Source: Nitratireductor aquimarinus
Lineage (GTDB): Bacteria > Pseudomonadota > Alphaproteobacteria > Rhizobiales > Rhizobiaceae
Length of the DNA: 64,000 bases
NCBI RefSeq assembly: GCF_017255295.1
Contig: NZ_JAFKDE010000013.1
Span: 1-64,000, forward strand
Direction: 5' to 3'
Positions within the stretch are counted from its first letter, which is position 1. The number at the start of each line of letters is the position of its first letter. Under the pieces are notes generated by a model. The model was not told the origin of the DNA. It made no database searches and saw only the letters and a list, made by a program, of their open reading frames with translations. This document shows positions 2,671-48,783 of the stretch, piece by piece. Made by a program: the position numbers and the translations under genes.

Positions 2671-3360
2671 CTCCTTCGTCATCCTCGGACTTGATCCGAG
2701 GATCCATGCCGGAACGTCTGGGACGAACCGCAGCCTTTGAAGATCGCGCATCGTTTTCTGCGCCTGTTCCGGTGGCAGCGCCGTGGCATGGATCCTATGG
2801 TCAAGCCATAGGATGACGAAGTGGGGGAGGCATTTGGCCAACCCCGCTCAAGGTGACGCCGGTGGGGTTTGAGCGTGTTCCCCCTATGACCGGGCAGCGT
2901 CCCCGGTAACGGCAAAGACGATGCCCCATCCCGCTCCTTCGTCATCCTCGGACTTGATCCGAGGATCCATGCCGGAGCGTTTGGGGTGAACCGCAGCCTC
3001 TGAAGATCGCGCATCGTTTTCTGCGGCTGTGCCGGTGGCAGCGGCATGGCATGGATCCTATGGTCAAGCCATAGGATGACGAAGTGGGGGATGGGTATCT
3101 GCCCGATCTGCTTAAGGTGGCCCGAGTGGGGTTTGAGCATGTCCCCCTATGACTGCCAGCAGGTGAAACCTGTAACGGCAAAGACGATGCCCCACCCCGC
3201 TCCTTCGTCATCCTCGGACTTGATCCGAGGATCCATGCCGGAACGTCTGGGACGAACCGCAGCCTCTGAAGATTGCGGATCGTTTTCCGCGCCGGTGCCG
3301 GGGCGTCGCAATGGCATGGATCCTATGGTCAAGCCATAGGATGACGAAGTGGGAGAGGGA
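2671..3360. repeat. Three direct copies of a ~265-bp unit, each with a 146-bp double-hairpin element
   Basis: The stretch 2593-3442 holds no gene. It carries three near-identical elements at 2675-2820, 2938-3083 and 3204-3348. Each starts TTCGTCATCCT and ends AGGATGACGAA, an inverted repeat that extends about 36 bases inward. Each arm is also a hairpin of its own (CCTCGGACTTGATCCGAGG on the left, CCTATGGTCAAGCCATAGG on the right). The intervening spacers also resemble each other, so a whole unit of 263-266 bp was duplicated. The GTCATCCTCGG...CCGAGGATCCATG motif is a well-known type of intergenic repeat in Rhizobiales genomes (recalled, not searched). Open frames across it are not genes. Confidence 0.9.
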
Positions 3361-3442
3361 TGACGAGGTGGGGTGGGCATCGCTCAAGCCTCACCGGAGA
3401 AAGGCACCGGGGCGCCACCCGGCCAGCCGAATGGAAAACCCC

Positions 3443-4213
3443 TTACACCATCCCCATCAGGCCGCGTCGGATGAGGTCCAGTGCGAGCAGGGTCAGGCCG
3501 ATCCTGAACCAGCGCCGGAACGTCTCTTCCGGCATTTTCTCCAGAAGACGGCTGCCATAGAGGGTTCCAAGATAGCCCGAGGCGATCATCAGGGCGATGA
3601 AGGGCAGCCAGTGCCAGAAGGCGAATCCCGCAACGGCAAACACGACGACCTTCAGTGCGTGCTGCACGGTCATGCCGGCGGCGTGGGTGGCGACCAGCGC
3701 CTTGCGGTCATCGGGAATGATCTGCGCGAAGAAGGCGGACAGGAGTGGTCCCGTCGCGCCGACAAACATGGTTGCGAGCGCCAGAACGGCGCTGCCGAAG
3801 GCAAGGCCGGCATGGCCGAGGCGGGCCGCACCGGGGATCTTTGTCCAGGTAACCGCGATGACGAACACGCCCAGAACGAGCTTCAGCAGCGCGTCGGGCA
3901 GCTGCACGACGAAATACGCCCCGACGGCGGCGCCGATCAGGCTGCCGAGAATGAATGGTGCGGCGATGGAAAAGCGGATATGCGCGCGCTGGCGCCAGGC
4001 GCGCCCGGTGTTGGAGCCGAGCTGGACGGCTCCATGCACGGGGATGAGTGCTGCGACCGGAATGAAGAGGCCGAGCAGCGCCAGCATGGCCACCCCGCCG
4101 CCGACGCCGAAAGCGGCTGTCAGCGCCGAAGTGAAGAAGCTGGCGATGATAAGGAGAAGCGCCGGGAGCGCTCCCAGCGTGTCAGGCAGAAATGTCTCCC
4201 AGCCGCCCAACAA
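3443..4213 (-). CDS. TSUP-family (TauE/SafE-like) membrane transporter
   Basis: A 256-residue, very hydrophobic protein with about eight membrane segments. It shows the TSUP family hallmark of glycine-rich half-repeats (AAFGVGGGVAMLALLG near residue 35, and FVGATGPLLSAFF in the second half). The family exports sulfite, sulfonates or organosulfur anions, or moves other small anions; the substrate here cannot be told. It is transcribed alone on the minus strand, with a dispersed repeat (4219-4300) between it and the upstream gene. The start codon is the only reasonable ATG before the first membrane segment. Confidence 0.85.
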   Translation of the reverse strand: MLGGWETFLPDTLGALPALLLIIASFFTSALTAAFGVGGGVAMLALLGLFIPVAALIPVHGAVQLGSNTGRAWRQRAHIRFSIAAPFILGSLIGAAVGAYFVVQLPDALLKLVLGVFVIAVTWTKIPGAARLGHAGLAFGSAVLALATMFVGATGPLLSAFFAQIIPDDRKALVATHAAGMTVQHALKVVVFAVAGFAFWHWLPFIALMIASGYLGTLYGSRLLEKMPEETFRRWFRIGLTLLALDLIRRGLMGMV

Positions 4214-45182: not shown

Positions 45183-46322
45183 TCAGCTACCCTCTCCCTG
45201 CTGCGCCTCAAGGCCCGTCGAACGCGAGCCAAGGCTTGCGAAAAGGGCCTGAATGGACGGTCTGAACATATGCTCCAGCGCACCGGCAAACAGGATCACG
45301 AGGCCCTGGATGATGACGATCATGTCGCGTGAGATGTTGGGCATCTCGAAGGCGAGTTCCGCACCGCCCTGATAGAGCATGCCGAACAGGATCGCCGCCG
45401 GCACGATGCCGGCCGGATGCGACCGGCCCATCAACGCCACCGCGATGCCGACGAAACCGGCCCCGGTAACGAAGTCGATCTGCAGCCGGTTCTGGTCGCC
45501 CATCACCGGGTTGAGCGCCATCATGCCGGCAAGCGCGCCGGAGATGAGCATGGTGATGATGATGATTTTCGTTTCGCTCACACCGGCATAGCGGGCCGCC
45601 TTGGGGCTGTAGCCGCGCATGCGGATCTCGTAGCCGAGCCGCGTGCGCCAGATCAGCACCCAGACGAAGAACGCCGCCGCCAGCGCCAGCAGGAACGACA
45701 GGTTGAAGGGCGCGGAGCGGATGGTGAAGCCCATGGCCTCGAGCATCCAGTTGAGCTTGGGCAGCTGCCCGCCTTCAAGGAAGTTGCGGGTCTGCGGGGC
45801 CTGCGCGCCGGCCGGCTTCAGCACGTTCACCAGCAGATAGACCATCAGGCTGGCGGCGATGAAGTTGAACATGATCGTCGTGATGACGATGTGCGAGCCG
45901 CGCTTTGCCTGGAAATAGGCGGGAATGAAGGCCCACGCCGCGCCGAACAGCGCCGCGCCGACAATGGCCAGCGGAAACACGAGCCACCAGGGCAGAATAC
46001 TGTCGAAGGCGAGGCAGACAACGGCCACGCCGAGCCCGCCCACATAGGCCTGTCCCTCGCCGCCGATGTTGAACAGGCTGCAATGAAAGGCCACCGCCAC
46101 CGCAAGGCCGGTGAAGATGAAGCTCGTCGCGTAATAGAGCGTGTAGGCGATGTTCTGGCCGCGTCCGAGCGCGCCATCCACCAGGATGACCGCAGCACGG
46201 ATCGGGTTTTCGCCAACCAGCATCACCACCAGGCCGGCCACCAGAAAGGCCACGGCGAGGTTGATCAGCGGGATCAGCCCGTAATCGGCCCAGGCGGGCA
46301 GTTTCGCATAGGGCGCGCTCAT
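45183..46322 (-). CDS. Nucleoside-type ABC importer permease (first permease, NupP/BmpC-like)
   Basis: 379 residues with about ten membrane segments: FNIGGEGQAYVGGLGVAV, GSHIVITTIMFNFIAASLMVYLL, RGYSPKAARYAGVSETKIIIITMLISGALAGMMALNPVMGDQNRL and GAGFVGIAVALMGRSHPAGIVPAAILFGMLYQGG are the family's conserved segments. Its ATGA start overlaps the stop of the inserted GIY-YIG gene. In the ancestral order it would have overlapped the ATPase gene in the same way. It forms a heterodimer with the 44210-45181 permease. Confidence 0.93.
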   Translation of the reverse strand: MSAPYAKLPAWADYGLIPLINLAVAFLVAGLVVMLVGENPIRAAVILVDGALGRGQNIAYTLYYATSFIFTGLAVAVAFHCSLFNIGGEGQAYVGGLGVAVVCLAFDSILPWWLVFPLAIVGAALFGAAWAFIPAYFQAKRGSHIVITTIMFNFIAASLMVYLLVNVLKPAGAQAPQTRNFLEGGQLPKLNWMLEAMGFTIRSAPFNLSFLLALAAAFFVWVLIWRTRLGYEIRMRGYSPKAARYAGVSETKIIIITMLISGALAGMMALNPVMGDQNRLQIDFVTGAGFVGIAVALMGRSHPAGIVPAAILFGMLYQGGAELAFEMPNISRDMIVIIQGLVILFAGALEHMFRPSIQALFASLGSRSTGLEAQQGEGS

Positions 46323-47268
46323 TCCGCCGCCTCCTTCGAGATCTCGTTTGAAGTTGTACGAGAGTCAAGCCAGGCACCCAGAGGCATACCTGTGGTGGAA
46401 TGTTTCCATTCCTTAGGCCCGCTGGACTGTCTATTCAGAATTACAGCAGCAGCCGCACTTGAGCTGTTAAAGAGCGTGTCCTCTTGAAATTTGAGGAACT
46501 CACCTTTGTCAGTTCGTTTTAAAACACCCTGATCTATAAGCGATTTTCTAAGGGGAGCGTAATTGTTCGTTTGATATCGTTCATCTGATATAGCGCTTGA
46601 TCCAGAAAGGACGATGAACTCGTTATCTCTTATCACTGCATGTGCTTTGACGCCGGATTTATGCTTTATAATTAGAATATCTTCTGAGTCGTCAAAACTG
46701 TTGGCTTTTTGCTTGATTTTCTCGCTTATCGCGCCTCTAAAAATGTTGATGTCTAGAACTGGCAGTATCAGTTTAACCTGATCAAGGAAGTTTTCCATGT
46801 CGGCTTGATCTGCTTCACCGAGGCCACCAGCCAGTTCATTTGGCGAGATCTGATTGTCCAGATGAGCACGCTTTCCGTCACTCGCTAGTTGGATCATCTT
46901 CGATTCAAGAGCAAGAAAGTGCCCAGCGGTGAAATTTGAGTCTGATGTCGTGATAATTGCGACTGTATCCGTCCAGTCTTTGTTTTTCAGTTGGGTGCGC
47001 AGGCGGTCGGAAAGTGTTGATGCCTGTCCGACATAAGCGCGCACTCCCATCGGGTGACTGAGATCCTCACCTTGCAGGATATAGCAGCCAGGTCTTTGGG
47101 CTTCTTCGCGGTCGAATAGCTCAGCAATTCTGATGTTCTTTGCGAGAATTACTGACCCTGTCCAGTTGGGTATGCTCGCAACGATCAGCCCGTTCGCCGA
47201 CCCGTCAACTAGGAACAATCTTATGGATTGTCCCCGTTTTGCGCGCGCGCTCATTCCGCCGCCTCCTT
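46313..47268. repeat. 24-bp perfect direct repeats bounding an inserted gene in the nucleoside operon
   Basis: The copies lie at 46313-46336 and 47245-47268, 932 bases apart. On the minus strand each reads AAGGAGG, CGGCGGA, ATGA, GCGCGC without gaps: a Shine-Dalgarno site, spacer, stop/start overlap and first codons. All 24 bases are identical. Between them lies only the GIY-YIG nuclease gene. Confidence 0.93.
46319..47254 (-). CDS. GIY-YIG nuclease with C-terminal DUF4357-like domain, inserted in operon
   Basis: 311 residues. The GIY-YIG domain spans about 54-135: G56-C57-Y58 and Y74-V75-G76 form the two strands, with R84 (STLSDRLRTQL), metal-binding E117 (ALESKMIQLA) and N134 in the expected places, so the nuclease should be active. 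The C-terminal part (about 200-300; FIVLSGSSAISDERY ... FQEDTLFNSSSAAAAVILNRQSSGPKEWK) looks like DUF4357, which is often found in DNA-modification contexts. Base use differs strongly from its neighbours: 46621-46680 is 35% G+C and 46501-46560 is 42%. The first codons (MSA) copy the downstream permease and the last codons (KEAAE) copy the upstream ATPase. It is horizontally acquired. Confidence 0.88.
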   Translation of the reverse strand: MSARAKRGQSIRLFLVDGSANGLIVASIPNWTGSVILAKNIRIAELFDREEAQRPGCYILQGEDLSHPMGVRAYVGQASTLSDRLRTQLKNKDWTDTVAIITTSDSNFTAGHFLALESKMIQLASDGKRAHLDNQISPNELAGGLGEADQADMENFLDQVKLILPVLDINIFRGAISEKIKQKANSFDDSEDILIIKHKSGVKAHAVIRDNEFIVLSGSSAISDERYQTNNYAPLRKSLIDQGVLKRTDKGEFLKFQEDTLFNSSSAAAAVILNRQSSGPKEWKHSTTGMPLGAWLDSRTTSNEISKEAAE

Positions 47269-48783
47269 TTCCTCGACGCCGGCCATGAGCAGGCCAAGTT
47301 CGCTTTCGCTTGCTTCGGGTCCGCGCTCGCCGACGACACGGCCGGCGAACATCACCAGAATGCGGTCGGACAGCGAGCGGATTTCATCCAGCTCCACAGA
47401 GACCAGAAGAACGGCCTTGCCCTGGTCGCGCATGTCGATCAGCCGTTTGTGGATGAACTCGATCGCGCCCACATCCACGCCGCGCGTCGGCTGGCCGACG
47501 ATCAGCACTTTCGGGTCCTGTTCGATCTCGCGGGCCAGCACGATCTTCTGCTGGTTGCCGCCGGAGAAATTGGCCGTCTTCAGCCGGCAGTCCGGCGGGC
47601 GGATATCGTATTTCTCGATCTTCTCGCGCGCATCGGCGCGGATCGCCTCAATGTTGAGGAAAGGGCCGTTCAGATATTTTGCCTGCCGGTGATAGCCCAG
47701 CATGGCGTTTTCGTTCTCCTCGAAAGGCAGCACGAGACCGACATGGTGGCGGTCTTCCGGCACATGGGCCATGCCGCGTTCGCGCAGGTCGGCGGGGTCG
47801 GCCGCACCCGTCAGGTCCACTGGTTCGCCATCCAGCGTCACCGTTCCCGAAACCGCCTTCTGCACGCCGGTGATGGCGTCGAGAAGCTGCGACTGGCCGT
47901 TGCCGGCCACGCCCGCAATGCCGACGATCTCGCCCGCGCGCACATCCAGCGACAGGTTGTCGACCATGGTGACGCCGCGCGAATCCTTGACCGTCAGTCC
48001 CTTGACCGAAAGAAGAACGTCACCCGGCGTCGCCTCGCCCTTTTCCACCTGCAGCAGAACGCGCCGGCCCACCATGAGCTCGGCCAGTTCTTCCACATTG
48101 GTCTCGGAGGTCTTGCGAGTGGCCACCATCGTGCCCTGGCGCATGACCGACACATTGTCGGTGATGGCCATGATCTCGCGCAGCTTGTGCGTGATGAGGA
48201 TGATGGTCTTTCCCTCATCCTTTAGCTGCTCCAGAATGCGGAACAGATGGTCCGCCTCGGCAGGCGTCAGAACGCCGGTCGGCTCGTCGAGGATCAGAAT
48301 GTCAGCGCCGCGATAAAGCGCCTTCAGGATCTCCACGCGCTGCTGCAGGCCCACCGGCAGATCTTCAATGATCGCATCGGGGTCCACTTCCAGCCCGTAG
48401 TCGCGCTCCAGCCGCTCCAGCTCCGAACGGGCCTTGGCGATGGAGGTGTTGAGCAGCGCTTCGCCCTCGGCCCCCAGAATGACGTTTTCCAGAACGGAGA
48501 AATTCTCCACAAGCATGAAGTGCTGATGCACCATGCCGATGCCCAGCGCGATGGCGTCGCTCGGCGTGTTGATGGTCGCCTTCCTGCCGGCGACATCAAT
48601 GCGCCCCCTGTCGGCCTGGTAGAAGCCGTAGAGGATCGACATCAGTGTCGATTTGCCGGCCCCATTCTCGCCAATGATGCCATGGATCGTTCCGGCGGTG
48701 ATCTTCAGATCGATGTTGCGGTTTGCGTGAACCGCCCCAAAGCTCTTGCTGATGCCCTTGAGCTCGATTGCCGTGTCAGCCAT
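47251..48783 (-). CDS. Nucleoside-type ABC importer ATP-binding protein (duplicated ATPase)
   Basis: 510 residues with two ABC domains, as in sugar and nucleoside importers. The N-terminal one has GIIGENGAGKSTLMSILYG, LPVGLQQRVEILKALYRGADILILDEPTGVLTP; the C-terminal one has GIAGVAGNGQSQLLDAITG and FSGGNQQKIVLAREIEQDPKVLIVGQPTRGVDVG. The second P-loop is degenerate (AGNGQS), as is normal in this family. It heads the operon and ends EEKEAAE, with its TGA overlapping the start of the GIY-YIG gene. No BMP-type binding protein gene is in the window. Confidence 0.95.
   Translation of the reverse strand: MADTAIELKGISKSFGAVHANRNIDLKITAGTIHGIIGENGAGKSTLMSILYGFYQADRGRIDVAGRKATINTPSDAIALGIGMVHQHFMLVENFSVLENVILGAEGEALLNTSIAKARSELERLERDYGLEVDPDAIIEDLPVGLQQRVEILKALYRGADILILDEPTGVLTPAEADHLFRILEQLKDEGKTIILITHKLREIMAITDNVSVMRQGTMVATRKTSETNVEELAELMVGRRVLLQVEKGEATPGDVLLSVKGLTVKDSRGVTMVDNLSLDVRAGEIVGIAGVAGNGQSQLLDAITGVQKAVSGTVTLDGEPVDLTGAADPADLRERGMAHVPEDRHHVGLVLPFEENENAMLGYHRQAKYLNGPFLNIEAIRADAREKIEKYDIRPPDCRLKTANFSGGNQQKIVLAREIEQDPKVLIVGQPTRGVDVGAIEFIHKRLIDMRDQGKAVLLVSVELDEIRSLSDRILVMFAGRVVGERGPEASESELGLLMAGVEEKEAAE

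Follow-up and report, generated by a model that had tools for sequence, protein, structure and literature searches.

The 64,000-nucleotide stretch of the Nitratireductor aquimarinus genome analyzed here (the window) carries on its minus strand an ABC transporter operon, nucleoside-type by reading, in which the gene order is ATPase, nuclease, permease and both junctions are 4-nt ATGA overlaps. The open reading frames and Pfam identify the outer two as the host genes of the operon: the ATPase gene (47251..48783; ABC_tran, in two stretches) ends in EKEAAE and a stop, and the permease gene (45183..46322; BPD_transp_2) begins with MSAPYAK. Between them lies an inserted gene of 311 aa (46319..47254) whose product, judged from Pfam, PADLOC and invariant residues, is a nuclease of the PDC-S14 kind with a GIY-YIG type N-domain and a DUF4357 C-domain. 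It starts MSA and ends KEAAE plus stop, has a GC content of 0.478 vs. 0.624 and 0.641 for its neighbors, and measures 932 bp from its own start codon to that of the permease. Each junction is formed by one copy of a 24-nt translational coupler, AAGGAGGCGGCGGAATGAGCGCGC, which reads on the minus strand AAGGAGG-CGGCGGA-ATGA-GCGCGC, that is, a ribosome site, a 7-nt spacer, the overlap and six further bases. In the upstream copy (47245..47268) the ATGA joins the ATPase stop to the nuclease start, and in the downstream copy (46313..46336) it joins the nuclease stop to the permease start. The two are identical at 24 of 24 positions (100%), and the next direct repeat reported in the 2 kb around them spans 16 nt with 88% identity. 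The original prediction, made from the letters alone, thus holds for the architecture: a low-G+C nuclease gene sits exactly at an ATGA junction between identical 24-bp sequences, and the duplicated coupler gives it both start and stop while the ends of ATPase and permease are kept.

The sequence GGAGGCGGCGGAATGAGC occurs in the whole 4.57-Mb assembly only as the two coupler copies, and a looser coupler pattern finds five matches in total (none for the reversed control), so a common-word artefact as the source of the repeat can be discarded. The insert is a single gene, with no transposase or integrase in it, and none of the six inverted repeats found marks its ends. No terminator-like site was found on the coding strand between 46000 and 47600. 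A promoter-like match does lie on the coding strand inside the nuclease gene, at 46695-46668 (two on both strands vs. 0.8 expected), and counts against the explanation that we favor below.

The catalytic region of the nuclease spans residues 56-134 (46853..47089, minus strand), and its motif residues Y58, Y74, G76, R84, E117 and N134 are intact, as had been predicted, and do not vary across 38 aligned sequences, the window protein included. We take a catalytic GIY...YIG region with Arg, Glu and Asn to define the GIY-YIG superfamily, and the window nuclease has these. The Pfam GIY-YIG model gave no match in the window protein itself and matched 12 of the 38 family members at E ≤ 1 (best 4.6e-05); the RAMA model matched 23 of the 38 at the same threshold (best 6e-05). 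At the other end, residues 236-291 (46382..46549, minus strand) form a DUF4357 domain (Pfam E 6.7e-17), a domain noted in GIY-YIG proteins in a passage of PMC4619093. PADLOC assigns the protein to PDC-S14 over residues 6-302, i.e., most of its length (2.2e-92), and likewise the related L021 protein discussed below (1.2e-107). An AlphaFold model (pLDDT 90.8) returned nothing in Foldseek at E ≤ 0.001; a weak match was to 2lwf (probability 0.63, 59 columns, E 0.4), presumably a GIY-YIG-like structure. Two matches to solved structures by sequence (E 0.14 and 0.31) were not accepted as real. On the strength of these profiles, the window nuclease is probably a phage-defence gene, which fits the fallback offered originally, a defence gene carried in. 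In the open-access literature, a scope outside which most subscription papers lie, no paper on the operon placement of this nuclease family was found.

The permease could be located in all 10 genomes of the genus that were compared, and in seven of them the ATPase/permease joint is uninterrupted in the predicted form (EKEAAE plus stop, ATGA, MS(A/T)PYAK; KKEAAE in G136). At these seven empty loci, 10-13 kb each, the coupler is present in one copy per locus; two copies in relatives lacking the nuclease, which the original prediction named as the finding that would speak against insertion, were seen at none of them. In one genome with an empty joint, G151 (loci L019/L020; 86% complete), the permease appears as two split matches. 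The remaining three genomes carry three different inserts at the joint, with repeats of 24, 21, and 13 bp. In 150-bp bins along ATPase and permease, the window species is 78-95% identical to nine relatives, apart from places with a shifted or split gene, namely two bins in the ATPase of G156 (26, 79) and five in the permease of G151 (19-38). Identity next to the joint, at 84-91%, shows no local anomaly, so that arrival of the insert together with long flanking tracts from a distant donor is rejected; donors within the genus are possible. The insert is the sole feature that marks the window species at this joint.

The two other occupied joints of the genus belong to sister species. In G152 the occupant is a different member of the nuclease family, which shares 39-41% identity with that of the window and is bounded by the 21-bp repeat; between the window and L021, nucleases are 40.6% identical and flanks 96-97%. 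In G153 (L022) the joint is filled by a BglII endonuclease (PF09195, 5.1e-41) and an MT-A70 methylase (PF05063, 3.1e-28), the latter a type II methyltransferase by PADLOC, and the insert ends share 13 identical bases, with two mismatches among the six preceding bases. Among 297 genomes searched in the family, 24 have a nuclease of this kind, which lies at this joint in seven (G000, G060, G104, G141, G217, G200, and G285); beyond that sample, G152 and Devosia submarina (L085) have it there too. In G200 the nuclease is preceded by 31 or 55 nt of spacer, depending on the choice of start. In G285 (L309) the nuclease lies between the ATPase gene and a VOC-type gene that is followed by the permease gene, as two layers at one joint. 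A first search of genome contigs with the single window protein found no relative, and among viral contigs none of nine homologue loci has the transporter genes within 8-9 kb.

Occupancy of the joint was read for the 30 best junction loci and for 20 further stretches chosen by hand, in several cases on account of a gap in their coordinates. The 30 comprise 25 empty joints (gaps of -3 to +3) and five occupied ones. Other occupants elsewhere are an isochorismatase-type hydrolase (by Pfam), a VOC-type protein, both together, or a possibly secreted protein (all but the isochorismatase by reading). Defence inserts have at least eight identical bases before the overlap in five of 10 cases (eight measured together, plus L308 and L309 measured separately), and other inserts in none of 13 (maximum 3), in a comparison in which start codons were set by rule and the permease start looks wrong for L006, L154, and L157; with likelier starts these three have at most one identical base. 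Since L008, L006, and L308 have no real repeat at the same joint, and L309 only nine bases with the overlap counted, the duplication is either not universal or decays. Isochorismatase- and/or VOC-type genes without a coupler repeat were seen at the joint in other genera of the family (L140-L145, L124, L126, L150, L157, L158, and L154, the last with both). Lacking the repeat, these metabolic inserts are excluded from the claim; they are possibly old operon members that have been lost elsewhere.

A quick tree of 85 nucleases, built apart from L308 and L309, indicates that the joint was entered more than once. Placing the nucleases of the joint on it takes three changes of site among the grouped rows; well-supported branches force at least two of these, and AU tests reject a single clade both for all seven joint nucleases (p-AU 4.4e-05) and for the six without the window protein (p-AU 5.5e-05), which sits on a very long branch and whose placement is unsure. 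One ancestral insertion for all joint nucleases is rejected by these tests on the quick tree. Five members (L085, L006, L008, L159, and L089) form a clade (SH-aLRT 100) at the same joint across genera. The L021 nuclease groups (99) with L036, L038, and L005, all at other places: L036 and L038 between an aminotransferase and a homoserine dehydrogenase gene (by reading), and L005 at neither place. Within one genus, the nucleases of L089 (G060) and L159 (G217) are 76.7% identical between flanks that are 97-98% identical, and the joint of a third genome, G270, is empty, which suggests turnover at the joint within that genus. The joint is a recurrent insertion site: more than one nuclease lineage has invaded it separately, and so has a restriction-modification pair.

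The prediction that homologues would likewise lie at ATGA overlaps with flanking repeats stands for some of them and fails for most. We examined 85 non-redundant loci (80 named nuclease loci are the best 80 of at least 454), and an ATGA-type overlap on both sides is present in 28 and missing in 57. At least 10 identical bases precede the overlap in seven of the 28, namely the window, L021, L089, and L159 (transporter), L102 (ABC exporter pair), L092 (hydrolase/glycosyltransferase), and L100 (hsdM/hsdS), the site names being assigned by reading. Such runs on the left occur in 7/28 own coupler pairs vs. 25/756 mismatched pairs, and permutations of the 28 loci, which are not independent given that the transporter and glycosyltransferase joints are each present more than once, reached the observed mean run in 0 of 5000 cases and gave 0.0008 for identity. 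The upstream coupler matches GGAGGCNGCNGARTGA in 11 of the 28 loci (L038 lies outside this set) vs. none of 46 background couplers, one of which ends in EAAE plus stop; the background came from 200 kb of each of two genomes and from the window, after a codon-composition filter that also removes the couplers adjoining the window nuclease.

Relatives of other joints were compared as well. The two exporter genes flanking L102 lie side by side in 24 of 30 related loci (gaps of -22 to +11), and GAGGCNGCNGARTGA is native to the empty joint in 12 of the 24, five of these having the full GGAGGC. Judged by the empty relatives, the target at the transporter joint already had the motif before insertion, and so did the exporter joint in half of the relatives that could be read. 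Relatives of the L092 joint, 53-63% identical apart from L088 (84, likewise occupied) and L224 (identical in sequence to L092), often have an AAE-stop ending; a 4-nt overlap is found only in L229, and most are not ATGA-coupled. For the homoserine dehydrogenase joint, the only informative empty site among 30 loci is L311 (gap -13, GGAGGCCGCGCAGTGA); 23 have no match to the upstream gene, two have gaps of 7 and 52, and four have gaps of 409-909 and no nuclease. The nucleases of L067, L068, L074, L092, L100, and L102, all of one clade whose other members differ in this respect, have QEA-type C-terminal residues at different sites. Since these endings recur, some cassettes may carry their own 3' coupler, which is what a model of insertion by short homology needs.

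Several further loci were noted in passing. In L009 and in L101/L107 the nuclease lies immediately 5' of an hsdM-like gene, and L009 has part of the hsdM-like start a second time, upstream of the nuclease, as if a longer stretch had been duplicated. In the closely related L055, L061, L063, L073, L075, L079, and L081, the nuclease overlaps by ATGA an hsdR-like gene (by reading) of 1075-1077 aa. Locus L310 (G266; 3048-4001) has EAAE codons at the nuclease end and just before its start and no coupled downstream gene, and is perhaps a broken operon. In the window genome, a prophage-like region by reading (contig C5, 3135-10882; L161) has several genes ending in EAAE plus stop, three of them in ATGA overlaps, and the coupler may accordingly be favored in phage operons of these bacteria.

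We consider it likely, with a probability of roughly two-thirds, that a compact PDC-S14-like GIY-YIG/DUF4357 nuclease gene was inserted exactly at the coupler of the ABC operon, with the coupler duplicated and the neighbors left translatable. Seen directly are empty sites with a single copy, precise boundaries, the separate invasions of this joint, and, in some other operons, homologues that lie between matching couplers. The insertion event would have duplicated the ribosome site and ATGA, plausibly by recombination at short homology, for which the coupler itself may have served. The upstream copy would then supply the nuclease start and leave the ATPase end intact, and the downstream copy would supply the nuclease stop and return a ribosome site to the permease, the repeat keeping ribosome site, spacing, and start/stop for all three genes. 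The nuclease gene, which probably lacks a promoter of its own, could be expressed by reinitiation and would defend against phage. Insertions elsewhere may have been purged for breaking the downstream gene. The short homology of the coupler would make such insertions frequent; selection alone could have retained only these out of many.

The original prediction also raised homing by the nuclease. In such a process the enzyme would cut the ATPase or permease gene of an empty allele, or DNA close by, and its gene would be copied in from an occupied allele by double-strand-break repair, and the GIY-YIG type of the enzyme, the five-member clade at one joint across genera, and the patchiness within the genus of G060, G217, and the empty G270 all speak for it. 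There are also precedents among the T4 free-standing endonucleases (seg, mob), several of which have no promoter and one of which, mobE, has a start/stop overlap suggesting coupled translation, according to part of PMC2988022. We nevertheless regard homing as an unlikely source of the insertions: the window and L021 nucleases fall outside the five-member clade, and homing spreads an insertion that already exists, which on its own does not produce a coupler duplication. Moreover, because an intact 24-mer remains at both ends in the window and the BglII/methylase pair occupies the same joint in a sister species, the insertion process does not appear special to the window nuclease, and this part of the prediction is not supported as stated. 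Homing could later spread an established allele to empty relatives.

Two further explanations dispense with repeated insertion or with duplication. A single ancient insertion, followed by vertical descent, fast divergence, and many losses, has in its favor the distant pair L006-L085 of the five-member clade, where nuclease (55.6) and permease (56.8) give values of a similar order. Nucleases as different as those of the window and L021 between nearly identical flanks, the rejection of a single clade, and the grouping of L021 with nucleases at other places make this highly improbable; it is largely refuted for the joint as a whole and possible for the five-member clade. Alternatively, a ribosome site with ATGA and EAAE plus stop could be a favored coupler, toward which the ends of an arbitrarily placed insert evolved or were selected. 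Such couplers do turn up again, both in the same genome, among prophage-like genes, and in relatives, at the exporter joint, and since EAAE plus stop is found in those prophage-like genes and in one of the background couplers, part of the likeness may be convergent. As the full account, convergence seems quite improbable to us, given that the 24-nt identity runs six bases past the ATGA and includes every third codon position, that the motif is rare in the genome and missing from the background couplers, and that the 13 other inserts at the same joint have no such match. A bolder version of the coupler reading, which we offer tentatively and think doubtful, is that a class of "coupler cassettes" without a transposase uses the motif GGAGGCNGCNGARTGAG as its attachment site. 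These would be single defence genes with a 3' ribosome-site/ATGA coupler that enter joints bearing the same motif, with translation restored on both sides and possibly with help from the nuclease cutting at or near couplers. No excision, circle, or transfer of the insert was observed.

Insertion at a duplicated coupler has parallels in known systems. According to PMC3031569, which cites Nobusato et al. (2000), restriction-modification genes can insert with a long, variable target duplication. As in those cases, a compact defence gene here is bounded on either side by a variable direct repeat of the target, of which empty relatives have one copy, and one insert at the joint (L022, BglII and MT-A70) is itself a restriction-modification pair; unlike them, the window has a nuclease standing alone as its insert, what was duplicated is a translational coupler, and one joint has been entered repeatedly. 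With the T4 seg/mob GIY-YIG and HNH homing endonucleases the window gene shares its type and its position between host genes, and the five-member clade, for which vertical inheritance is possible, resembles homing endonuclease genes in that diverged hosts have related copies at one site; the bacterial operon, the DUF4357 domain, the flanking coupler duplication, and the unrelated genes at the same site set the window apart from them. The PDC-S14 label, whose profiles the window and L021 proteins match, says nothing on genomic placement. Type I operons of the order hsdM-nuclease-hsdS (names by reading) contain the same nuclease family with ATGA overlaps on both sides, L100 having nearly the same coupler twice, but those nucleases lie among restriction genes and that of the window in a transporter operon. 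What looks new is the coupler as duplicated target, the way in which different defence genes have repeatedly used one transporter joint, and the recurrence of the pattern at some other operon joints.

A passage in PMC4176335 asks how restriction-modification systems turn over fast when few of them ride mobile elements. For compact defence genes, insertion at the couplers of operons would offer one answer, requiring no transposase, perhaps no promoter, and little cost to the neighbors. It would also mean that housekeeping operons can harbor defence hotspots, which surveys of defence islands may overlook, and the repeated coupler offers a recognizable scar by which more such inserts could be found. 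Several separate invasions of one joint in related bacteria hint that small defence genes may spread without a transposon, via operon couplers.
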